Shown here: piece by piece, positions 1,087 to 52,193 of the stretch
Numbering within the stretch: the stretch's first letter is position 1
How the letters are laid out: each line of letters begins with the position of its first letter
From: an uncultured Eubacteriales bacterium
GTDB taxonomy: Bacteria > Bacillota > Clostridia > Oscillospirales > Acutalibacteraceae
Length of the DNA: 64,000 bases
NCBI GenBank assembly: GCA_900315285.1
Contig: OMYO01000006.1
Coordinates: 1-64,000, forward strand
Direction: 5' to 3'
Notes under the pieces: model-generated
Told to the model about the DNA's origin: nothing
Database searches by the model: none
The model's input: the letters and a program-made list of their open reading frames with translations, nothing else
Program-made: the position numbers and the translations under genes

Positions 1087-3858
1087 ATGGAAAATTTTAG
1101 CAGAGCATGCTTTTCTTTATGGGCAAAAAAAGAAGAAAAAGAGAGCCAGTTTTATTGGCTCCCATTACCGGTACATTTGGAAGATACTATGCATGTCTCC
1201 AAATGGCTTTGGATGAATTGGCTCAGTGAGAGCCAAAGAGAATTCTGCATTCGCTCAATCAGCGTACCGAATGCAGATGTTGCATCCAATCTCGCAGCTT
1301 TTCTCGGTGCTGTTCATGACATTGGAAAAGCAACCCCTGCCTTTCAAATTCAGAAAGGATACCAAAATTCTCCAGATTTGGATGGTTCTCTGCTGGAAAA
1401 ACTGGAACGGGCAGGCTTTCGAGGTATCTCTTCTTTTTCTCTTACTAACCGTGAGAAAACACATCACTCCATCGCGGGAGAATTTCTGCTGAAACAAGCA
1501 GGTGTGAAAAATGACATTAGTTCCATTGTCGGAGGCCATCATGGCAAGCCGATTGACAATGCTTCTGACATAGATGATCAGTCTGCATATATGGCGAACT
1601 ATTATCAGAGCGAAGACATCAGCACAGATATCTTTCATAAGTGGGAGCAGGTTCAGAGTGAAATTCTTCATTGGGCACTGAAAAAAACCGGGTTTGACAG
1701 TGTGGAAAATCTTCCTGAGCTCTCTCTGCCGGCTCAGGTCATTTATTCCGGATTATTAATTATGGCGGACTGGATTTCCAGCAATACCGATTATTTTCCA
1801 CTGCTTTCAATTGACGCATCTTCTATTTCTGAAAGTTTTTCTCGTTATCAAACTGGGGTCACTAAGTGGGGAAAGAATCTGCCGCTGCAAATACAAAGCT
1901 ATCCATCGGAAGATGTTTTATTCCAAACACGGTTCGGCTTCCAGCCGCGAGATTTTCAGCGAACGGTCTGCCATACGGTCAGTCAAATAAAAAAACCGGG
2001 CATTATGATTCTGGAAGCTCCTATGGGACTCGGGAAAACAGAGGCGGCTCTTGCAGCTGCAGAGGAAGTTGCAGCAAAAACAGGCAGCAGCGGACTGTTT
2101 TTTGGGCTTCCAACGCAGGCGACTTCGAATGGGATGTTTGGAAGAGTTAAGGAATGGCTGGAAAATCTTGCCGAAGAATATGGAATGAAACAGTCTTTGC
2201 AATTATGCCATGGGAAAGCGGCATTGAATAAAGAACTGAATCAGCTAAAAAAATCAACGCAGGACGTAAATATTGATGATGTATCCAATGGAAGCGTCTA
2301 TGTAAATGAATGGTTCTCAGGAAGGAAAAAGACTTCTCTGGATGATTGTGTAGTTGGAACAGTAGATGGTTTTCTGCTGACTGCACTGAAACAGAAACAT
2401 CTTGCGCTAAGGCATCTGGGATTCAGCAAAAAAGTTGTAATTATAGACGAAGTACATGCTTATGACACTTATATGCAGCAATACCTGGACGAGGCAATCC
2501 GATGGATGGGTGCCTATCAAACCCCTGTCATACTAGTATCGGCAACTTTGCCTCAGGAAAGGAGAAAGGCTCTAATTTCTGCATATTTAAAGGGAATGGG
2601 CGCAAAGCGGAATGAAATAAAGTTTCCAGATGCTCTATCTGGAAATAGTTATCCGTTAATTAGTTATTCGGACGGCAAAGAGGTGAAGGGACAGGTATCT
2701 TTTCAGCCAACGAAGAATAAAGTCATTTCGGTTGTGAAAATTAACGAAGAGGTTTTGCTGGAGAAGGTGGAAGAATGTCTGGAAGATGGCGGTGTTGCAG
2801 GAATTATTGTGAATACCGTTCGAAAGGCACAACACCTCGGAAAAATCTTCAAAGAACATTTTGGAGCAGAAATGACAGAGGTCCTGCATTCTGCGTATAT
2901 TGCGACAGATCGTGTTGAAAAAGAAAAAAATCTTATCAGCATGATTGGCAAACATGGGAACAGACCGGAGAAAAAAATCATCATTGGAACACAGGTTATG
3001 GAGCAGTCACTCGACATTGATTTTGACGTATTATTTACCGATCTCTGTCCAATAGATTTGCTGCTGCAGAGAATCGGAAGAATGCATCGACATGAGATAG
3101 AACGACCTGAAAAGCTAAAGGAACCATCTGTATATGTCATGGGAACCAGTGACCAGTTAGATCTTGAAAAAGGGTCGGTGCGGGTCTATGGAGAATACAT
3201 TTTAATTCGAACACAATATTTTCTTCCAGATAAAATACGAATCCCTTCTGACATTCCGGTTCTAATCAACGATGTATATGGAGACAAAGAGCCCGCATAT
3301 CAGGGAGAACTGCTAAATATCTATCAGAACAGCCGAAGTCAGATGGAAATCCAAAAGAAAAGCAAGGCCGATAAAGCATATACCTATCGAATAGAGAATC
3401 CTCGTAGTGCCATTCGGCCAGATAGAGAAAAGTATAATCTGATTGGCTGGCTGAAGTTCCCAGATGAATCGTTGAGTGATGAAATGGCATCTGCACAGGT
3501 CAGAGATATCCAGGAAACCATTGAGATTGTTGCTGTAAAAAAAATCGACAGTGGTTATGGGACTTTTCATGGAAATAAAGATATCTCTGGTGAGATTGAG
3601 GATGTCAGGATTGCAAAAGAGCTGGCCAAGCAGACTATCCGACTTCCCCATTTTGTGACAATGAAAGTGGGGGTTACAAAAACAATTGATTTTCTGGAGA
3701 AATACAATTTAAAATATTTGGCCATTTGGCAGGAACAACCATGGCTAAAAGGCGCTCTTGGAATTATTTTTGATGAAAACGGGAGCTTTGATTTATGTGG
3801 TGTCCATTTGAAATACGACATGGAGTTTGGACTGCGTGAGGTGAAAGATAATGGGTAA
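1087..3858 (+). CDS. cas3: CRISPR-associated helicase/nuclease Cas3 (type I-E)
   Basis: This 923-residue protein has an N-terminal HD nuclease domain followed by a superfamily 2 helicase. HD-domain signatures are AVHDIGKATPAF (H77, D78), THHSIAGEFL and GGHHGKP. The helicase has Walker A APMGLGKTEA near residue 312, the DEVH box at 454-457, SATLP (motif III), and QRIGRMHRH (motif VI). Cas3 is recruited by target-bound Cascade and unwinds and degrades the non-target strand from 3' to 5'. The ATG follows TTGGAGAAAAT. It is the first gene of the cas operon and overlaps cse1 by 8 bp. All key residues appear intact, so interference activity is plausible. Confidence 0.96.
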   Translation: MENFSRACFSLWAKKEEKESQFYWLPLPVHLEDTMHVSKWLWMNWLSESQREFCIRSISVPNADVASNLAAFLGAVHDIGKATPAFQIQKGYQNSPDLDGSLLEKLERAGFRGISSFSLTNREKTHHSIAGEFLLKQAGVKNDISSIVGGHHGKPIDNASDIDDQSAYMANYYQSEDISTDIFHKWEQVQSEILHWALKKTGFDSVENLPELSLPAQVIYSGLLIMADWISSNTDYFPLLSIDASSISESFSRYQTGVTKWGKNLPLQIQSYPSEDVLFQTRFGFQPRDFQRTVCHTVSQIKKPGIMILEAPMGLGKTEAALAAAEEVAAKTGSSGLFFGLPTQATSNGMFGRVKEWLENLAEEYGMKQSLQLCHGKAALNKELNQLKKSTQDVNIDDVSNGSVYVNEWFSGRKKTSLDDCVVGTVDGFLLTALKQKHLALRHLGFSKKVVIIDEVHAYDTYMQQYLDEAIRWMGAYQTPVILVSATLPQERRKALISAYLKGMGAKRNEIKFPDALSGNSYPLISYSDGKEVKGQVSFQPTKNKVISVVKINEEVLLEKVEECLEDGGVAGIIVNTVRKAQHLGKIFKEHFGAEMTEVLHSAYIATDRVEKEKNLISMIGKHGNRPEKKIIIGTQVMEQSLDIDFDVLFTDLCPIDLLLQRIGRMHRHEIERPEKLKEPSVYVMGTSDQLDLEKGSVRVYGEYILIRTQYFLPDKIRIPSDIPVLINDVYGDKEPAYQGELLNIYQNSRSQMEIQKKSKADKAYTYRIENPRSAIRPDREKYNLIGWLKFPDESLSDEMASAQVRDIQETIEIVAVKKIDSGYGTFHGNKDISGEIEDVRIAKELAKQTIRLPHFVTMKVGVTKTIDFLEKYNLKYLAIWQEQPWLKGALGIIFDENGSFDLCGVHLKYDMEFGLREVKDNG

Positions 3859-5602
3859 ATTTAATTTACTGGACGAACCGTGGATTTCCGTTCTTATAAA
3901 AGAGAGCGGAATGAAAAAAGAAGTATCTATGTTGGAATTTTTTCATAATGCGGACAGTTACCAGTCCTTTGCCGGAGAAATGGAAACGCAGAATTTCGCT
4001 GTAATGAGATTCCTTCTGGCCGTGGTACAAACTGTTTTTTCTCGGTTTGATTATCAGGGGAATGTGCTGCCTGGAATCCTTCTCGATGAAAGATGGTGTC
4101 AGACTGATCCAATTGATTCCGATGATATGGATGCTGTAGATGATTATTCGGATGCTGCTGAAGAATGCTGGGACCAGCTTTATTCTTCAGGAAAATTCCC
4201 GGACATTATCTTCGACTATCTGGAAAAGTGGAGAGACCGTTTTTATTTGTTTGATGAGGAACATCCATTTTTTCAGGTGAATGAAAAAGAAATGGCTGAG
4301 ATTATGGCGAACATTCCAAATAAGAGTCAGCCAACCACTATTTATGGAAAAAATTTAAATCGGACTATTTCAGAAAGTGAGAATAAGATTGCCTTGTTCT
4401 CTCCGATTGCAGCAATCGGAAATGCCAAGAGAAGTAAAAAAGACATTATGACAGCGGCAGAACTTGCTAGATGGCTCCTGACATTTCATGGATATGCAGG
4501 GCTTGCAGACAAAGTTTCACTGGTCAATAAAGAACAGAAGCCATCAAAAGGATGGCTGTTTGATCTCGGAGGACTGTATCTGCGTGGAAACACTGTATTT
4601 GAGACAATCATGATGAATTATATGCCGGTGCTACCTATTGAATTTGAACAATTTACCGGAAGAATTCAGAAACCCTGCTGGGAGTCAGATGGGAGTACAG
4701 TCATTCACCGAATTTGTTCCAACCGTAATATTGATAATCTTGCAGAATTATATACAAATTGGAGCAGAGCTGTATATATTAATCCTAAATCAGATCTGAC
4801 AGTACCAGTAAAAATAAATGTTGTAAAGATTCCAGAGATAGATCATTCAGAAAACTCGATTGAACCGATGACCATTTGGCGAAAAAACAAAACGGGACCA
4901 AATAAGAATCATTTTTCACTGAAAAAACATGAAGCGGAACAATCTTTGTGGAGATCGTTTGGAATTATTACGATTCGAAATTCAATTAATAAAGAGAATA
5001 AACAGCCGGGAATCATGGAACAATATCCAAGGCTGCAAAGAACAGCGGGAAGCAGATGGACGGACCTGGTTGGCGTTAGTATGAAGGATGATGGGAATGC
5101 AACATCATGGCTTCCGACAGATGAAATCACAGACAGTTTTCAGATAAATGACTTGCTAATTACAGATTCGAATCCGGATAGTTGGGTAATTCGAATTAAC
5201 GATGCAGTGGAATCTACCAAAGATGTTGTTTCAAATATTTTTAAACGTTATCTCAGAGGAATCTGTGAAATTAGAAATTTGAAAGTATCGAATCCAATGG
5301 ATCCAATTGCAGCCGGTTTTCTTTCAAGAGAAACTGCACAATTATACGCGATTATTGATCCGGAATTTAAAGAATGGCTTTCCTCAATTCGCCCAGATGA
5401 TTCGAAAGAAAAAGCCATAAAATCATGGTATCTCCAATTAAAAGATATTGTCCTGAAAAGAGGAAAAGAGTTATTTGAAAACAGTACTGCCAGAGATTTG
5501 ACTGGGGTCGAAACGGAAAGAGGAATTGAAAACATTGCAACAATATACTGGCAATTTGTAAATAATGTAAATCATGCACTTGGAAAGGGTGGAGATTCTT
5601 GA
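3851..5602 (+). CDS. casA: Cascade large subunit Cse1/Cas8e
   Basis: The 583-residue protein opens with GKFNLLDEPWISV, the hallmark N-terminus of Cse1 (CasA). In the type I-E Cascade complex it reads the PAM and recruits Cas3. It is somewhat longer than the E. coli protein (about 500 residues), which is within family range. The start overlaps the cas3 stop (ATGGGTAA) and the end overlaps cse2 by 4 bp (TTGA), so translation is probably coupled. The PAM-reading residues cannot be assigned by eye. Confidence 0.94.
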   Translation: MGKFNLLDEPWISVLIKESGMKKEVSMLEFFHNADSYQSFAGEMETQNFAVMRFLLAVVQTVFSRFDYQGNVLPGILLDERWCQTDPIDSDDMDAVDDYSDAAEECWDQLYSSGKFPDIIFDYLEKWRDRFYLFDEEHPFFQVNEKEMAEIMANIPNKSQPTTIYGKNLNRTISESENKIALFSPIAAIGNAKRSKKDIMTAAELARWLLTFHGYAGLADKVSLVNKEQKPSKGWLFDLGGLYLRGNTVFETIMMNYMPVLPIEFEQFTGRIQKPCWESDGSTVIHRICSNRNIDNLAELYTNWSRAVYINPKSDLTVPVKINVVKIPEIDHSENSIEPMTIWRKNKTGPNKNHFSLKKHEAEQSLWRSFGIITIRNSINKENKQPGIMEQYPRLQRTAGSRWTDLVGVSMKDDGNATSWLPTDEITDSFQINDLLITDSNPDSWVIRINDAVESTKDVVSNIFKRYLRGICEIRNLKVSNPMDPIAAGFLSRETAQLYAIIDPEFKEWLSSIRPDDSKEKAIKSWYLQLKDIVLKRGKELFENSTARDLTGVETERGIENIATIYWQFVNNVNHALGKGGDS

Positions 5603-6219
5603 ATAATGCAGCAAATAAATCGACTATTGATGGAACAATGAGGTCAATATTGAGTTTTTTTAACAGTCCGCAAGAACAAAAAAATCTTGCTGGAGATTTA
5701 GCAGCATTGCGAAATTCAATAGGAAAAGGTGAGGAAGCCGCTGAGGTTTGGCCAATTCTGTTCCCGCATATTCCTTCGGAATTTTTGGGAAATGGTGCAC
5801 TATCTTATGAAGAAAAAGCACTGTTAGTTTCATTACAGATTTATGCAATTGGACAGCAAGGTTCCAAAAAAATAATGAACGATAATAGTTCTAATATTGG
5901 AAGTTCACTGCGTGCTATTAGAAATGAGAATTCGACCGCTATGGACAGACGCTTCAATACGATGCTCACAGCTTCAACCTTTGAAGAGTTTGTATATTAC
6001 TTAAGACAGATATGCAGACTTGGAAAGTCGAAAGCTCAATTTTCTGTGAATTTTCCTGCTCTTGCGAAGGATTTATATTGGTACCAAAATGGCAGTGCAA
6101 AAAGGATTTGCTTGGAATGGGCACGAGAATACTATCGGCCCAAAATAAAAAATAGTAGTAATGAAACGGAAGCATCCGTAACCAAAGAAGAAAGTATTTC
6201 TAAGGAGGAAATAAAATGA
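5599..6219 (+). CDS. casB: Cascade small subunit Cse2/Cas11
   Basis: The 206-residue protein is mostly helical. It has the Cse2 patterns RRFNTMLTASTFEEFVYYLR and QFSVNFPALAKDLYWYQ, followed by a charged tail rich in Glu, Ser and Lys. Two Cse2 copies normally line the belly of Cascade and stabilise the crRNA and the R-loop. The chosen start is TTG at 5599, with GGTGGAG four bases upstream and overlapping the cse1 stop; the next in-frame ATG (5638) would remove 13 residues and lacks a good site. The end overlaps cas7 by ATGA. Confidence 0.92.
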   Translation: MNNAANKSTIDGTMRSILSFFNSPQEQKNLAGDLAALRNSIGKGEEAAEVWPILFPHIPSEFLGNGALSYEEKALLVSLQIYAIGQQGSKKIMNDNSSNIGSSLRAIRNENSTAMDRRFNTMLTASTFEEFVYYLRQICRLGKSKAQFSVNFPALAKDLYWYQNGSAKRICLEWAREYYRPKIKNSSNETEASVTKEESISKEEIK

Positions 6220-7283
6220 CAGAAAATCGCTTTTACCTTGACGTTCATGCAATTCAGACCCTTCCGCCATCCAATGTAAACAGAGATGATACAGGGAGTC
6301 CTAAAACAGCAGTTTATGGTGGAGTGAGACGTGCGAGAGTAAGTTCACAGTCATGGAAAAGGGCAATGAGGCAATATTTCCTTGACGAATCTGCAGAAGA
6401 TCTGGGCATTAGAAGTACAAATGTAATAAAGTATGTAGCAGATAGAATTATTGCTATTGATTCTTCTATTACAGAAGAAAAAGCGATGGAATTAGCTGAA
6501 AAAATTTTTCATGATGCAGGAATAAAAACGAAAGATCAAAAAACAAAAGCATTTTTTTTCCTGGGAAGACAGCAGGCTGACCTTTTAGCAGAAGCAGCCA
6601 TTAAGGGCGAGACCGATAAAAAATTATTAAAACAGATTTTTAATGATAATCCGGCAGTCGATATTGCTCTCTTTGGAAGAATGGTTGCAGATGATCCTTC
6701 GTTAAATGAAGATGCCTCATCACAGGTAGCACATGCAATTTCAACACATGAGGTACAAACGGAATTTGATTTCTATACCGCAGTTGACGATTTAGCTCCG
6801 GAAGATAATGCGGGAGCAGGCATGCTAGGAACAATTGAGTACAACTCGTCAACGTTATATCGTTATGCAAACGTAGCTGTACACGAATTGACGAGACAAT
6901 TGGGAAACGTAAAGCAGGCAATTGATACTTCCAAACTGTTCATTCAGGCTTTTGCAAATTCCATGCCCACTGGTAAATCCAATACGTTTGCGAATCAGAC
7001 ACTTCCACATTTGTTGATGATTAACATTCGGCAGGACAGACCAGTGAATTTGGTAACGGCATATGAAAAGCCTGTCAATTCACGTAAAGGCAATGTAGTG
7101 CCATCTATCAACCTGCTGTTTCAGGAAGCAAAACGTACGGAAAAATTTGTTCAACCGCCGATTAAAACATTCTATGTCGTAAATGAAGAGGAAGGCATTG
7201 TAAAACCGGAGTGGGCAACAGAAGAAAGCACGATGGCAGACTTATTAAATGATTTTGAAAAGACGGCAGAAGATCTTTTATAA
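6216..7283 (+). CDS. casC: Cascade backbone subunit Cas7e (Cse4/CasC)
   Basis: The 355-residue protein has the Cas7e signatures FYLDVHAIQTLPPSNVNRDD near the start, GGVRRARVSSQSWKRAMR at about residues 36-53, and SMPTGKSNTFANQTLPHLL. Six copies normally form the crRNA-binding helical backbone of Cascade. It is preceded by a strong AAGGAGG site, and its ATG overlaps the cse2 stop, so it is probably the most highly translated cas gene, in line with the 6:1 stoichiometry known for the complex. Length matches the family. Confidence 0.95.
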   Translation: MTENRFYLDVHAIQTLPPSNVNRDDTGSPKTAVYGGVRRARVSSQSWKRAMRQYFLDESAEDLGIRSTNVIKYVADRIIAIDSSITEEKAMELAEKIFHDAGIKTKDQKTKAFFFLGRQQADLLAEAAIKGETDKKLLKQIFNDNPAVDIALFGRMVADDPSLNEDASSQVAHAISTHEVQTEFDFYTAVDDLAPEDNAGAGMLGTIEYNSSTLYRYANVAVHELTRQLGNVKQAIDTSKLFIQAFANSMPTGKSNTFANQTLPHLLMINIRQDRPVNLVTAYEKPVNSRKGNVVPSINLLFQEAKRTEKFVQPPIKTFYVVNEEEGIVKPEWATEESTMADLLNDFEKTAEDLL

Positions 7284-7289
7284 AGGCAG

Positions 7290-8006
7290 GTGGTCAATTT
7301 GAAAACTGTTTTATTGAAGTTTTCAGGTCCATTGCAGTCTTGGGGAACCAATTCACATTTTGAAACACGTCATACAGATACGCATCCATCTAAAAGCGGT
7401 GTAATTGGAATGATTGCAGCCGGATTAGGGTATCAGCGTGAAGATGATAAAAAAATAAATAGATTAAACAGTATGAACTTTGCAGTTCGCATTGATCAAA
7501 CTGGAACTATACTGAGAGATTATCATACGGCACATAAATATAAAGAGAGTGGAAATATAGACAGAACCTATGTAACCAATCGATATTATTTACAGGATGC
7601 CGTTTTTGTTGTTGCTCTTAGCAGTGAAGATGTGGGGCTGATAAATGACATCATATCTGCAGTGAAAAAGCCATATTTTCCAATCTATTTGGGCCGCAGA
7701 TCATTGCCGCCAACAGCAGATCTCTACCTGGGAACTGTTGATACAGATGCAATTTCAGCATTAAAAGATTACCCCTGGCAGGCTTCGGAGTGGTATCAGA
7801 AAACTGGTAATAAGCGTCTGCAAATTTTTGCAGACGCATCGTTAATCGAAAGCGGAAGTAATCGTATCCGAAATGATGAACCTCTTTCTTTTTCTCAAAA
7901 GAAAGGCAGAAAATTTAGTCCAAGGAGAGAAACAAGCATTTTTATAAATGCAGTTGTTTCAAGAGACCTGGAAGAACACGATGCTTTTGGGGCAATAAGG
8001 GAGTAA
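7290..8006 (+). CDS. casD: Cascade subunit Cas5e (CasD)
   Basis: The 238-residue protein has the Cas5e N-terminus (VLLKFSGPLQSWGTNSHF) and the loop KSGVIGMIAAGLGYQRED. Cas5e caps the 5' handle of the crRNA and contacts Cse1 and Cas7. The start is uncertain: GTG at 7290 gives MVNLKTV, but the best ribosome site (AGGTGG, 7288-7293) is spaced correctly for TTG at 7299, giving MKTVLLKF, which is closer to the family N-terminus. The coordinates given use the longer form. Confidence 0.93.
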   Translation: MVNLKTVLLKFSGPLQSWGTNSHFETRHTDTHPSKSGVIGMIAAGLGYQREDDKKINRLNSMNFAVRIDQTGTILRDYHTAHKYKESGNIDRTYVTNRYYLQDAVFVVALSSEDVGLINDIISAVKKPYFPIYLGRRSLPPTADLYLGTVDTDAISALKDYPWQASEWYQKTGNKRLQIFADASLIESGSNRIRNDEPLSFSQKKGRKFSPRRETSIFINAVVSRDLEEHDAFGAIRE

Positions 8007-8010
8007 TGAT

Positions 8011-9594
<1,584 letters not shown>

Positions 9595-9595
<1 letters not shown>

Positions 9596-10509
9596 TGCCT
9601 TTTACAGTAATTGTTTTAAAAAAAGTACCCAATTCTCTTCGTGGAGATCTCACAAGATGGATGCAGGAAATTGCAACAGGTGTATATATTGGCAGCTTTA
9701 ATTCCAGAGTAAGGAATTATCTATGGAACCGTGTTACAGACACGGTTGGGCAAGGTGAAGCAAGCATTTGTTTTTCATGTAGGAATGAAATTGGATATTC
9801 ATTTTGTACATTTAATACAGAACGGCAAGTAATTGATTACGATGGGATACCTCTAGTTTTGATACCTGCAGAAGATACAAGTGAAAATGATATGAATCTG
9901 AAATCACCAGGCTTCAGTAATGCAAGCAAATTACATCAAGCTGCTCGAAGAAAGAGGGCTGCGCCGCCAGATTCTAAAAATAAGATAAAAGATGAAACGC
10001 CGGAACCTCATGATCAAACGGAGTTGGTTTTTCTCGATATAGAGACTACGGGACTGGACATTGAAAAGGATCAAATTATTGAAATTGGAGCTGTAAAAGT
10101 TTCAAATGGAGAAGAATTTGAATTTCACAGATTGATTGAGGCTGGCATTCATATACCAGAAGTGGTGTATAAACTTACCGGTATTTCTGACGAGATGCTT
10201 AAAGGCAAAACGAAATTGGAAGAAGGTATTCGAGACTTTTTTACTTTTATTCAAGGTGCAACTTTAGTAGGATACAATATTTCATTTGATATAAAATTTA
10301 TTAATAGAGAACTGCAGAAATATTCATTAGAACCTATACACAATCAAACAATGGACTTAATGCTAGCAGCAAAAAGGAAAAATAGTTTCCAAACGAATTA
10401 CAAGTTTGAAACCACTTTAAAAGAGTATGGGATTAATGAAATCGTTTGTCATAGAGCTCTGAAAGATGCGAGGTTAATGTATGTGCTTTACTCAAAAATG
10501 AATTTGTGA
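9595..10509 (+). CDS. cas2: Cas2 fused to a DnaQ-like DEDDh 3'-5' exonuclease
   Basis: This 304-residue fusion has a Cas2e domain (about 1-95, MPFTVIVLKKVPNSLRGDLT with EIATGVYIG), a polar linker (about 100-140, rich in Lys, Ser and Pro), and a DEDDh exonuclease (143-304). The exonuclease residues are all visible: D148 and E150 in FLDIETTG, D232 in GYNISFDIKF, and H286 with D291 in CHRALKDA. Such fusions are known in some type I-E systems, where the DnaQ part trims prespacer 3' ends to the right length and removes the PAM at the right time. It overlaps cas1 by one base and is directly followed by the leader. Confidence 0.95.
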
Positions 10510-10596
10510 TACCAATACAAATGTTACAGTTTTGAAAAGTGAATAAAAACAGGATCGAGCAGGTAAAAAATAGCGTAGTTATTGGGATCTTTTACT
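10510..10596 (+). promoter_or_regulatory. CRISPR leader
   Basis: The 87 bases between the cas2 stop and the first repeat are AT-rich and gene-free. They contain TTGAAAAGTGAATAAAAACAGG-like runs and end in TTTACT at the first repeat. New spacers should be added at this side. I cannot identify a confident promoter for the array here; a TAAAAA at 10564-10569 lacks a matching -35 box. Confidence 0.75.
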
Positions 10597-12698
10597 GTTG
10601 TCCCCGCGTGAGCGGGGGTGATCCTTCCCGCTTCAGCAGACGCGGTAAAGCTTTTCGGTTGTCCCCGCGTGAGCGGGGGTGATCCTCATCGCCTGACGGT
10701 CTGCCGGAGCAAGGTCAGGTTGTCCCCGCGTGAGCGGGGGTGATCCCATCCCAACTTTTGTCATACTCCGCATCAACTAGTTGTCCCCGCGTGAGCGGGG
10801 GTGATCCTGACAATAGAAGTTGACGATGGTAAAGAGACCGGTTGTCCCCGCGTGAGCGGGGGTGATCCCTGCGTTCTGCGGCTTTCCCACTTTAACCGTA
10901 AGTTGTCCCCGCGTGAGCGGGGGTGATCCTAGACGGCAGTAAGAAAGGCATGGACGCCGCACGTTGTCCCCGCGTGAGCGGGGGTGATCCTTTAATGGTG
11001 AGTATCAAAGCGAGGAAACGTACGTTGTCCCCGCGTGAGCGGGGGTGATCCTAAGACGGGCAAAGTCGATATTGTCAAGAATATGTTGTCCCCGCGTGAG
11101 CGGGGGTGATCCCGTACTGATTTTCGGACCGCCTGTTGTGATAGTGTTGTCCCCGCGTGAGCGGGGGTGATCCTTTGCTGTCTAGGTCGTAGCCGCTGGA
11201 GTAGTCGTTGTCCCCGCGTGAGCGGGGGTGATCCTGTACGACTATGTTATTTATCCGCATGACTGCAGTTGTCCCCGCGTGAGCGGGGGTGATCCTGCAG
11301 TGCAAACATGTGATATAGTTAAACTCAGGTTGTCCCCGCGTGAGCGGGGGTGATCCCGACACAGACAACATCGCCATGGAAATGGACATGTTGTCCCCGC
11401 GTGAGCGGGGGTGATCCCTTCGCAAACAGCTTCAGAATGTCGGATTCGTTGTTGTCCCCGCGTGAGCGGGGGTGATCCTGATTTCCTCGCACCCGACTTT
11501 GTCAAGCATCTGTTGTCCCCGCGTGAGCGGGGGTGATCCTCCGACGCCGCGCGGTTGGAGCCCTGAAAAACAGTTGTCCCCGCGTGAGCGGGGGTGATCC
11601 CATGGATATAACCGCAGTAAAGGCGGCAAAAGCGTTGTCCCCGCGTGAGCGGGGGTGATCCCCGCCTACACCCAATGCAGTAATATCAGCCTTAGTTGTC
11701 CCCGCGTGAGCGGGGGTGATCCTCGGCAAGCGCATTTTCGTCAACCTCTCCGGTTGTTGTCCCCGCGTGAGCGGGGGTGATCCCATGTGATATAGTTAAA
11801 CTCAGGAAGAACAGACGTTGTCCCCGCGTGAGCGGGGGTGATCCTTCAGTGGTCATCATGGGCCGACTTACAGCGGAGTTGTCCCCGCGTGAGCGGGGGT
11901 GATCCTACGAACCATCACCCTTTTTTATGCCGAGTGTAGTTGTCCCCGCGTGAGCGGGGGTGATCCCAGACTGGCTCAAGTCCGGCAACTATCACGGGAG
12001 TTGTCCCCGCGTGAGCGGGGGTGATCCCTGTGATCGGATGCCCGTCTACCATCTGCGTGAGTTGTCCCCGCGTGAGCGGGGGTGATCCCGTGATGCGGTA
12101 GAAGAGCGCGAAAAAGCTCTTGTTGTCCCCGCGTGAGCGGGGGTGATCCTGCACTTTTCCGTAGTCTACACGGCCCCCAAACGTTGTCCCCGCGTGAGCG
12201 GGGGTGATCCTCAATCTGTAAGCCTCCACGCAATCCCGTCCGTGTTGTCCCCGCGTGAGCGGGGGTGATCCTGGAAGAAATGCAAGACAAATACGGTTCA
12301 CTCGGTTGTCCCCGCGTGAGCGGGGGTGATCCTGCCGCACTTCATCGGCGGTTTATCAAAGTCAAGTTGTCCCCGCGTGAGCGGGGGTGATCCCTGCCGC
12401 TTGACGTTTGGCAAGATGAGGACGGAGTTGTCCCCGCGTGAGCGGGGGTGATCCTGAAGACAGTGAGAGGGAGATAATCCCAAGGGCGTTGTCCCCGCGT
12501 GAGCGGGGGTGATCCTGGGTGGCTGGAAGAACAATGCCTACCATGAGCGTTGTCCCCGCGTGAGCGGGGGTGATCCCAAGAACATCCTGGCCATGCGTCC
12601 CAGGGTTCCGTTGTCCCCGCGTGAGCGGGGGTGATCCCAAGATCGACACAATCAAGGTCAACGGCACTGCGTTGTCCCCGCGTGAGCGGGGGTGATCC
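10597..12698 (+). CRISPR. Type I-E CRISPR array: 35 repeats, 34 spacers
   Basis: The 28-nt repeat begins GTTGTCCCCGCG and ends GCGGGGGTGATCC, with a CCCCGC/GCGGGG hairpin and GTGA loop. Repeat starts fall every 61 bases from 10597 to 12671 without exception, so every spacer is 33 nt. All repeats I read are identical, including the last one. Every spacer begins with T (20) or C (14), which means position 29 of the unit is a constrained pyrimidine. Spacers 12 (11296-11328) and 20 (11784-11816) share 22 nt. Cas6e cleavage at the stem base would leave an 8-nt handle of GUGAUCC plus that pyrimidine. Small frames read across the array (repeating ITPAHAGTT, DHPRSRGDN, GSPPLTRGQ) are artefacts. Confidence 0.99.
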
Positions 12699-12723
12699 CA
12701 ACCACCTTTTTGCATCGCGAATT

Positions 12724-13800
12724 TTCAAGTCAAGTGCAACACTTTCGAATAGAAGACTTCATAAGGTGTCCGGTACCCCAGACATTTGCGGGGCCGCATG
12801 TTTAATTCGTCTATGACTTTCTGCAGGTACTCCTCAGAAATATCTGTGAGATCTTTTCCTTTTGGAAAGTATTCCCGGAGTAGTCCATTTGTGTTTTCAT
12901 TGGTCCCTCGCTCCCATGGATGGCGCGGCAACGGGAAATAAAACTGCACTCCGCCAAGAGCTTCCGTCACTTCTTTATGTCTGGCAAATTCTTTCCCACG
13001 GTCCGGTGTAATGCTCTCTAATGGCATTCCCTGCATAACTCGTATCATTACATCATTGACTGACGTAGCTTCTTTCTTGGCGGCTTTTCCTGTAATCAGG
13101 AAACGACTTTTCCGGTCTACCATGGTGACAAAACAAGCTCTGCCGGTTTTACCTGCCACGGTATCTCCCTCCCAGTCTCCTAAACGAGATCTGTCAGCTG
13201 CTTCCTGTGGTCGCTCACGGAGTTCACGACTGATGAAAATTTGACCGCGGCGTTCTGAAATGCCTTTCCTTCTGCGCTTTTTCGCATGGTGCCTTAGCTT
13301 ATGATTTGCTGTTTTTGTTCCATGCAGCAGTTTGGATTTATTAAATAAGCCGGCATAAATTGCCCGGTAAATTGTGACATAGCTAATGGAAAATTTCGAA
13401 TGCTCCAGCTTGAGCCTTTCAGAAATTTCATCTGGAGACCACTGGTGATTTAGAAATTTATCTTCTACACATGAAAATAATTCAGGGTTATCCAGGAGCT
13501 TGTGACGTTGGCAATTTTCTCTTCTGGCATGATATTGTTCCTGAGCTTTCGAGGGAAGATATTCACCGTCTATACTGTTTCGATGAATCTCTCGAGAGAT
13601 GGTTGATTTATTACGATTCAGTTCTTTGGCAATTTTAGAAATAGAATAGTCCAAAGTAAGAAACTTCAGTATTAAATCGCGTTCATTTGGTGTAAGATGC
13701 TTGTAGTGACACATAGTATTTCCCTTTCAATGAGGTCTTTAGCAAACACCATTGTACAGGAAAGCTATGTGTCATTTCTATGTGTTGCACTTACATTGTA
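12724..13800 (-). mobile_element. Intact IS30-family insertion sequence beside the CRISPR array
   Basis: Imperfect terminal inverted repeats are TTCAAGTCAAGTGCAAC (12724-12740) and, inverted, TACAATGTAAGTGCAAC (13784-13800), with 13 of 17 matches. AATT is present on both sides (12720-12723 and 13801-13804), flanked by GCG on the left and CGC on the right. Removing the element and one AATT restores the perfect palindrome GCGAATTCGC, and IS30 elements are known to favour palindromic targets. The exact boundary could shift by a few bases because the repeats continue symmetrically into the flank. It begins 25 bp after the last CRISPR repeat. Confidence 0.85.
12725..13714 (-). CDS. IS30-family transposase
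   Basis: The 329-residue protein has an N-terminal helix-turn-helix (KHLTPNERDLILKFL, ISKIAKELNRNKSTISREI) and a DDE catalytic core. The D, D, E residues sit in GDWEGDTVAGK, ITPDRGKEFARH and ERGTNENTNGLLREYFPKG. Its end (NMRPRKCLGYRTPYEVF) is typical. The stop codon lies inside the terminal repeat, as is usual for compact IS elements. The gene appears complete and probably active; it reads towards the CRISPR array. Confidence 0.96.
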   Translation of the reverse strand: MCHYKHLTPNERDLILKFLTLDYSISKIAKELNRNKSTISREIHRNSIDGEYLPSKAQEQYHARRENCQRHKLLDNPELFSCVEDKFLNHQWSPDEISERLKLEHSKFSISYVTIYRAIYAGLFNKSKLLHGTKTANHKLRHHAKKRRRKGISERRGQIFISRELRERPQEAADRSRLGDWEGDTVAGKTGRACFVTMVDRKSRFLITGKAAKKEATSVNDVMIRVMQGMPLESITPDRGKEFARHKEVTEALGGVQFYFPLPRHPWERGTNENTNGLLREYFPKGKDLTDISEEYLQKVIDELNMRPRKCLGYRTPYEVFYSKVLHLT

Positions 13801-13980
13801 AATTCGCCGTGCTAATAAGTCGAGCAAGAGGCGAAATGAGACTCTTAAGCATGAGCATCTTATTTGCGTTCCATCTTTGAAATCTTTTTTTGCTTTTTCG
13901 GATACTATTTGAACCTTATTGCTTTTGTTTTCCTCAGAAAAGATAGAAGGAGAGTTAAGTAAGCATAGAAAGGAATTACG

Positions 13981-50966: not shown

Positions 50967-52157
50967 TTACCCCGGGAGTTTTTCCAGGAACTCCATGAGG
51001 TTATCGTAGTATTCGAAAAACGGTCCCTTTTTCATGTCCATGCCCATATAGGAGACATGGCTGAGCCGTTCAACGGGCATATTATACCATTTGCCCGGCT
51101 CCAGCTCTACACCTTCTGCGTAGTCTGCCTGCGGCTCGTTATAAGGAGCCTTAGCACATTCGGTGTTAACAAAGCCATCCTGGGAGTCCCAGGCGGGGCG
51201 GGAGTAGCCGTAGCGCTGCAAAGTGGTGTTGTGATAAGAACCGGTGATGAGACCGACGACTTTAGCGAGGATGCTGGCGTCACGGTTCATGACTTCAATG
51301 TCACAGGACGTGGAATGGGAGTTCCCGGAGGGATGGGCAAAATAGTAGATATCCGGGGCACAGTGGATGCTCTGGTTCATGTCGTACATGCCCTCGATTT
51401 GCATTTCAAAGCCGACGGAGTCCCGGACGTTCTCATCGAACCGCTGAATGTTTTTCCAGCGGGCAAATGGGGAGCGAATTTTTGTCTTTTCCCGGGCTGC
51501 AGGGTCGTCGTTGACGCCCCACTGATCCATATGGAAGTCAATGAGTTTGTCGGCAAATATTGAGTTGCCAAACATGGTATTGACGCCAAGATACAGGTCG
51601 TTGATGGCCAGGACGCCACGCTCTCTTAAAAACGAGGTGAGAGTGGTGCCGTTGTTGACTCCGGCAAGAGTGGTGACGGAGCGAATGCAGTGGTGTCCTC
51701 CCTTATACAGTTCCGACAGTTCCTCTGCGGGAGTGCCCTCAATTTCCTCTTGGCATCCATTTGTGAGGAGCTCTGCAAGTACGCGGACTGTGGGGGCGCC
51801 GAAGGAGTGGCCAATGAGGTCGATTTTTTCATGGGCCCCGGGCTGACCAAGATCCGGGATGAGTCCGGGGTAGGTCCTGCCAAAGCGCTTATGGCCATAT
51901 TTCTCACTGTGGACTTTGCCGTAGTCCACGGTTCCGCCGACGATCTGGTAATAGGTGTCGACGGCGCGGTCCCAGGCGCTGTTGACCGGTCCCACCGAGG
52001 GGGCGTAGACCTCGTAGCCCTTTTCCCGGAGGTGGGTCATGGCGTCTGTGTTTTTTCCGAGCCAGCCCCAGTATGGGACATACTTGTAGATGCCATCCTG
52101 CTCTCCAAAGCCCATGAAGCCATGGACGAAGACGGCGGCGCAGGTCGATTTTTTCAT
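50967..52157 (-). CDS. Alpha/beta-hydrolase lipase (staphylococcal/Bacillus I.5-I.6-like)
   Basis: The 396-residue protein has the oxyanion strand AAVFVHGFMGFGEQDGI, the nucleophile elbow LIGHSFGAPT, the aspartate in WDSQDGFVN and the final His in ERLSHVSYMGMD. The long insert and TLAGVNNGTTL resemble the large bacterial triacylglycerol lipases. There is no signal peptide, so it may act in the cytosol or be exported some other way. ATG 52157 is used, seven bases after AAAAGGAG; the frame starts two codons earlier, too close to the site. Confidence 0.88.
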   Translation of the reverse strand: MKKSTCAAVFVHGFMGFGEQDGIYKYVPYWGWLGKNTDAMTHLREKGYEVYAPSVGPVNSAWDRAVDTYYQIVGGTVDYGKVHSEKYGHKRFGRTYPGLIPDLGQPGAHEKIDLIGHSFGAPTVRVLAELLTNGCQEEIEGTPAEELSELYKGGHHCIRSVTTLAGVNNGTTLTSFLRERGVLAINDLYLGVNTMFGNSIFADKLIDFHMDQWGVNDDPAAREKTKIRSPFARWKNIQRFDENVRDSVGFEMQIEGMYDMNQSIHCAPDIYYFAHPSGNSHSTSCDIEVMNRDASILAKVVGLITGSYHNTTLQRYGYSRPAWDSQDGFVNTECAKAPYNEPQADYAEGVELEPGKWYNMPVERLSHVSYMGMDMKKGPFFEYYDNLMEFLEKLPG

Positions 52158-52193
52158 ACACATTCTCCTTTTCTATAAATTTTTCTCAAAATA

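Follow-up and report, generated by a model that had tools for sequence, protein, structure and literature searches.

Pyrimidine-starting spacers point to a 5'-AAY PAM in a type I-E CRISPR array of an uncultured Acutalibacteraceae bacterium

Restriction of the first spacer base in a type I-E array was reported in 2012 for Gardnerella vaginalis, in which C or T starts 97.5% of the spacers and AAC and AAT PAMs were derived; the authors raised over the 28th and 29th bases the question that arises here, namely whether the base belongs to the repeat or to the spacer (PMC3559282). That system resembles the present one in its 28-nt repeat, its 33–34-nt spacers and its AA PAM (PMC3559282), but G. vaginalis belongs to the Actinomycetota, and its protospacers are chromosomal whereas those found here are viral. 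The pattern is thus already published and less new than was implied by the first-pass annotation of this DNA. AAY (Y, pyrimidine) was given for both G. vaginalis and Lactobacillus casei in a 2014 survey (PMC4246573). The L. casei system (type I-E, Ldbu1), also from the Bacillota, has AAY immediately upstream of its protospacers (PMC3496567), although the motif was derived there from protospacers and not from the first spacer base.

Three further systems served for comparison. CRISPR4 of Streptococcus thermophilus DGCC7710 (St-Cascade) likewise combines a 28-nt repeat, ending in GGGGGTGATCC, with 33-nt spacers; an AA PAM was assigned in silico and a 32-bp R-loop was described with an AAN PAM, but no demand for a pyrimidine is stated in the sources compared, though one may stand in the first adaptation and interference papers on this system (Sinkunas 2013; Drabavicius 2018). 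In Escherichia coli type I-E, the last repeat base derives from the third PAM base, as is proposed below for the present array (PMC3338789), but the PAM is AAG, the base is nearly always G and Cas2 is unfused. The closest solved relative, for both Cas1 and the full-length Cas2-DnaQ protein, is the Megasphaera NM10-related Cas1-Cas2/DEDDh trimmer-integrase (PDB 8FY9-8FYD), which protects a TT (AA) PAM directly outside a 33-nt core and has PAM-pocket residues that are conserved here (PMC10284694). Unlike the arrays described below, it was selective in vitro for TT only, with no preference reported at the neighbouring base (PMC10284694).

The type I-E locus and its array

The window is the whole stretch of DNA analysed, 64,000 nt of contig OMYO01000006.1. 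Its cas genes, all on the + strand, were identified with NCBIfam models at curated cut-offs, and the eight genes of a type I-E set were found in the order cas3-cse1-cse2-cas7-cas5-cas6e-cas1-cas2. Scores above cut-off were obtained for cas3 (HD nuclease-helicase; 1087-3858; TIGR01587 and TIGR01596), cse1/cas8e (3851-5602; TIGR02547), cse2/cas11 (5599-6219; TIGR02548), cas7e (6216-7283; TIGR01869), cas5e (7290-8006; TIGR01868) and cas6e (8011-8643; TIGR01907). These are followed by cas1e (8660-9595; TIGR03638, also above cut-off), whose product has its best PDB match in 8fy9_B (E 2e-142), and by a cas2-DnaQ (DEDDh exonuclease) fusion of 304 aa (9595-10509). The fusion carries Cas2e (TIGR01873, above cut-off, residues 5-87) and a DnaQ-type exonuclease domain (dnaQ TIGR00573, residues 142-302) within one open frame, as in the Cas2-DnaQ subgroup, and is matched best, over its full length, by the Cas2-DEDDh chain 8fy9_A. 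DIETTG and HRALKDA motifs were found by reading, and the protein is a predicted exonuclease. In the Megasphaera Cas1, His29 serves in duplex measuring and Tyr126, Gly148 and Tyr171 bind TT (PMC10284694); the equivalents H25, Y122, G144 and Y167 are conserved in the present Cas1.

A putative leader of 87 nt (10510-10596, + strand), assigned from its position alone, separates cas2-dnaQ from the first repeat. The old end of the array is adjoined, 5 nt past the last repeat, by an element of IS30 type (12704-13820) whose terminal inverted repeats are 39 nt long, so the array may be truncated there. An IS3-type transposase gene precedes cas3 (118-900), and the system is thus flanked by insertion sequences.

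The array (10597-12698, + strand) consists of 35 exact copies of the 28-nt repeat GTTGTCCCCGCGTGAGCGGGGGTGATCC and 34 spacers, each of 33 nt, at a fixed period of 61 nt. The 28 + 33 nt layout and the CCCCGC...GCGGGG stem visible in the repeat are those of type I-E. No further copy of GTTGTCCCCGCGTGAGCGGGGGTGATCC was found in the same genome at up to 3 mismatches, and in 300 sampled genomes of the family the repeat was absent from all but this genome.

The first base of the spacers (base 1) was T in 20 and C in 14 of the 34, with A and G in none; the recount reproduced the figures of the first-pass annotation exactly. A pyrimidine start to nearly all spacers is the pattern of type I-E systems with an AAY PAM. 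The constant G at the 29th base that marks an E. coli-like AAG PAM was not found, the position holding T or C and never G. Base 12699, after the terminal repeat, is likewise C, but the IS30-type element begins just beyond it, at 12704. A scan of the other spacer positions showed no restriction, the next most skewed having 9 or 20 pyrimidines among 34. The chance of 34 pyrimidines in 34 was 8e-12 if pyrimidines are taken at their frequency over the rest of the spacer (0.47), and 1e-15 at the AAN composition of the matched phage contig described below, on which a pyrimidine follows AA with a frequency of 0.36.

The order of T and C from spacer to spacer is random (18 runs, P = 0.64/0.50), which ties base 1 to the individual spacer, as opposed to a variant inherited with the repeat. 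Three other sources of the pattern, namely drift of the repeat, base composition and chance, were considered and rejected on the runs and probability calculations. The same data bear on the reading in which base 29 is a polymorphic (T/C) position of a 29-nt repeat and is copied at integration from the repeat next to it. The equivalent base of E. coli is indeed written as part of a 29-nt repeat (PMC10011333), but the random alternation of T and C speaks against a copied base, as does the invariance of the remaining 28 repeat bases; together with the agreement between base 1 and the protospacers (next section), these leave the polymorphism reading barely credible.

Protospacers and their flanks

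IMG/VR was searched for exact matches to the 22-nt stretch common to spacers 12 and 20, and a single contig of 6.7 kb (L018) was returned. It holds perfect (33/33) protospacers for spacers 12, 16, 17, 20, 21 and 22, all of which lie on the + strand of the window. With flanks written as the two bases upstream of base 1, a slash and base 1 itself, the protospacers of spacers 12 (11296-11328), 21 (11845-11877) and 22 (11906-11938) have AA/T, those of spacers 17 (11601-11633) and 20 (11784-11816) have AA/C, and that of spacer 16 (11540-11572) has GA/T. The protospacer of spacer 16 (L018 3705, - strand) is the sole perfect one without AA, and in it the pyrimidine is kept despite the deviating first PAM base. 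Spacer 12, which overlaps spacer 20 by 22 nt, contains the flank of the spacer 20 protospacer (...GCAAA/CATGTG), and AA/C is therefore visible inside the array itself.

AA thus precedes five of the six perfect protospacers, all of them on L018, and a pyrimidine stands at base 1 in all six; the probability of AA in at least five of six is 1.6e-5 at the AA frequency of this contig. The pyrimidine pattern of the array is accordingly present in the targets, with AA adjoining it. Base 1 agrees with the protospacer in each perfect case, whether it is T or C, which is not expected of a base copied from a neighbouring repeat. The first-pass annotation had proposed that base 1 is donated by the PAM and that the PAM is of an AAY type, and had named purines at this position of the flanks as the outcome that would speak against it. 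With AA/Y in five perfect protospacers and GA/T in one, on one contig, and with no purine at the base-1 position, the proposal is borne out.

Six of the eleven consecutive spacers in positions 11296-11938 of the window come from phage L018, from both of its strands, and two of them overlap by 22 nt. The matching spacers are confined to array positions 12-22 (P = 0.004 for such tight clustering), as would result if spacers were taken up from one phage repeatedly or through priming; it looks like a burst of primed adaptation. L018 encodes SSB, DUF1492 and RusA-like proteins (the last assigned by reading) and a partial lipase, consistent with a phage replication region. One of its proteins, of 508 aa (89-1615), has an intein-like insert (Intein_splicing, E 3e-7, under the Pfam cut-off), and the insert apparently lies within an ERF/recombinase-like host protein. 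A protein-based search for relatives of L018 found only L018 itself.

No exact match was found for the other 28 spacers, and no protospacer, a diverged match of spacer 34 aside. Spacer 34 (12638-12670, + strand) has a diverged homologue with 7 mismatches in a genome of the same family (L175), with an AA/C flank. Exact IMG/VR searches with the cores of spacers 23, 26, 28, 32 and 34 gave no match, and when the whole array was compared by BLAST with annotated phages and plasmids, the only results were repeat-type matches to arrays elsewhere and weak matches of the kind due to chance. Spacer 26 (12150-12182) encodes FGGRVDYGKVH, which is a motif found in lipase-like proteins (Lip_C), and resembles the lipase genes of genus members and of L018 with 4-7 mismatches and without AA; these matches are distant homologues and are uninformative on the PAM. 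Lipase genes of the Lip_C kind are found on L018 (6082-6687) and as a host chromosomal copy (window 50967-52163). The host copy differs from spacer 26 by 11 mismatches and lacks an AA flank, and the target of spacer 26 may be a phage-carried lipase.

First-base spectra in related arrays

GTDB representative genomes were scanned for TCCCCGCNNNNGCGGGGGTGATCC, which gave 80 loci, 45 of them with usable arrays. Spacers were 33 nt long nearly everywhere among the 45 arrays. In Bacillota, a pyrimidine started 537 of 573 33-nt spacers, and in three Lactobacillales genomes whose repeats nearly match that of S. thermophilus CRISPR4, base 1 was T or C in all 33 spacers read. With fused or unfused Cas2 assigned per genome and not by adjacency to each array, genomes with fused Cas2-DnaQ had 92.6% pyrimidine starts (472 spacers). 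Genomes with unfused Cas2 had the same layout and mixed spectra: Micromonospora and Pseudoclavibacter had C and some G, Streptomyces had G alone, and a termite-gut Clostridiales bin had pyrimidines alone. The first-base spectrum varies from lineage to lineage, with pyrimidines in Bacillota and either C/G or G alone in many Actinomycetota, a modest result beyond that for the array itself.

Array repeats of the same class, about 25 in number, were also found in a GenBank scaffold from human faeces labelled 'Bacteriophage sp.' (L206; MT835722.1 3281-20668), with first bases C16 T8 A1. The scaffold may be a bacterial fragment under a wrong label, or the array may be carried by a phage.

Flanks of matches were read for two of the other arrays. 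An independent Cas2-DnaQ array of Lacticaseibacillus (L083) matched the Lactobacillus/Lacticaseibacillus phages R9.1, Lc-Nu, phiAT3, ATCC8014 and P7.1 with AA/Y and phage Bromius with AG/G, and a match of a Streptomyces array (L070) had AA/G. From these flanks AA is common, and the third base varies by lineage.

The survey bears on the role of the fusion. In the first-pass annotation it was suggested that Cas2-DnaQ may set the trimming point; on that reading, the fusion is why a variable base is left. The DEDDh domain does trim Megasphaera prespacers to length (PMC10284694), and every fusion-bearing genome among the arrays examined has a pyrimidine-biased array. The same 28/33 layout and a selective first base are found, however, in genomes with unfused Cas2 (L020, L021, L058, L067, L070 and others), two of which (L058 and L067) are pyrimidine-only save for one off-length spacer, and E. 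coli, with its unfused Cas2, also retains one PAM base. Since unfused type I-E systems share the register, the fusion is unsupported as a requirement, and control of the trimming point by it is judged highly unlikely as the explanation.

Spacers of 34 nt bear on the integration step. They start with A in 8 of 30 cases, against 14 of 914 for 33-nt spacers (P = 9e-8), and the extra A usually precedes the normal first base of the lineage, as expected if one A of the PAM was left untrimmed. The complement of base 1 is, by the geometry of the Megasphaera complex, the 3' terminal nucleotide of the trimmed PAM-side strand (PMC10284694), and the restriction could on that ground reflect the chemistry of integration, with a purine (opposite Y) needed at the attacking PAM-side 3' end, and not PAM recognition. 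A-starting 34-nt spacers have T at that end, however, and were integrated nonetheless, and their second base mostly follows the usual spectrum of the lineage; both points come from a small sample. Integration chemistry is considered a rather improbable source of the pattern.

Acquisition of a third PAM base

The simplest account joins the PAM-derived repeat base of E. coli (PMC3338789) with the TT protection of the Megasphaera complex (PMC10284694). Prespacers with 5'-AAY (5'-RTT on the PAM strand; R, purine) would be selected by Cas1, AA would be removed before integration, and the third PAM base would stay in the insert of 33 nt, as the base adjoining the 28-nt repeat. The initial T or C of each spacer would then be a base from its own target. 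With Y in place of G the third PAM base is variable and hence visible in the array. The choice of AAY prespacers by Cas1, with AA trimmed and the third PAM base kept as base 1, is given a probability of about 0.93; that Cas1 makes the choice of Y, during adaptation, is what we infer. The account is weakened by the confinement of the six perfect matches to one viral contig, with GA in place of AA at one match, and by in vitro work on the Megasphaera enzyme, which reports a need for TT (AA) only and no demand at the adjacent base (PMC10284694).

The bias might instead arise after acquisition, if any AAN site were acquired and spacers whose crRNAs target AAY survived through interference or priming. 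Interference and acquisition motifs of type I-E systems can differ (PMC6546366), and both steps shape array contents. Against this, 34 pyrimidines in 34 spacers, and a matching pattern in many arrays that are unrelated, could be explained in this way only by very strong counter-selection of every AAR spacer, and Cascade of S. thermophilus, where the repeat ends identically, has been called PAM-promiscuous. Selection on acquired spacers is therefore regarded as unlikely.

A variable crRNA handle would follow from the sequence provided that Cas6e cuts at its usual place. Cas6e of S. thermophilus cleaves after repeat position 21 (PMC3890593); a cut at the same position here would give a handle of GUGAUCC+Y, whose eighth position would be U or C depending on the spacer, and the predicted 5' handles are GUGAUCCU and GUGAUCCC. 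Self could be told from target by CC in the repeat against AA at the target, and the third base would not be needed.

The account may extend to other arrays whose 28-nt repeats end in GTGATCC. In these, base 1 would record the third PAM base, and each lineage of Cas1-Cas2 would have its own spectrum (Y in Bacillota and in part of the Actinomycetota, C/G in other lineages, G alone in Streptomyces) independently of DnaQ; the odds on this generalisation are put at even. In the aligned PAM pocket region, no single Cas1 residue cleanly tracked the first-base spectrum. The strict G of Streptomyces accompanies a divergent Cas1 lineage, and a G-rich array (L039) has a Cas1 similar to those of the pyrimidine type. 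If the generalisation is true, the acquisition PAM could be read from the array alone and the Cas1 determinant mapped by comparison. The comparison of first-base spectra between lineages goes somewhat beyond the published texts consulted, as does the contrast between TT-only selectivity in vitro and the apparent demand for RTT in arrays.

The finding supplies a practical PAM (AAY) for an uncharacterised system of type I-E whose near relative, the Megasphaera trimmer-integrase, has a solved structure, and the PAMs of such systems would be readable straight from their arrays. The solved Cas1-Cas2/DEDDh complex has been described as reading TT only, yet the arrays of its relatives appear to demand a purine beside TT.
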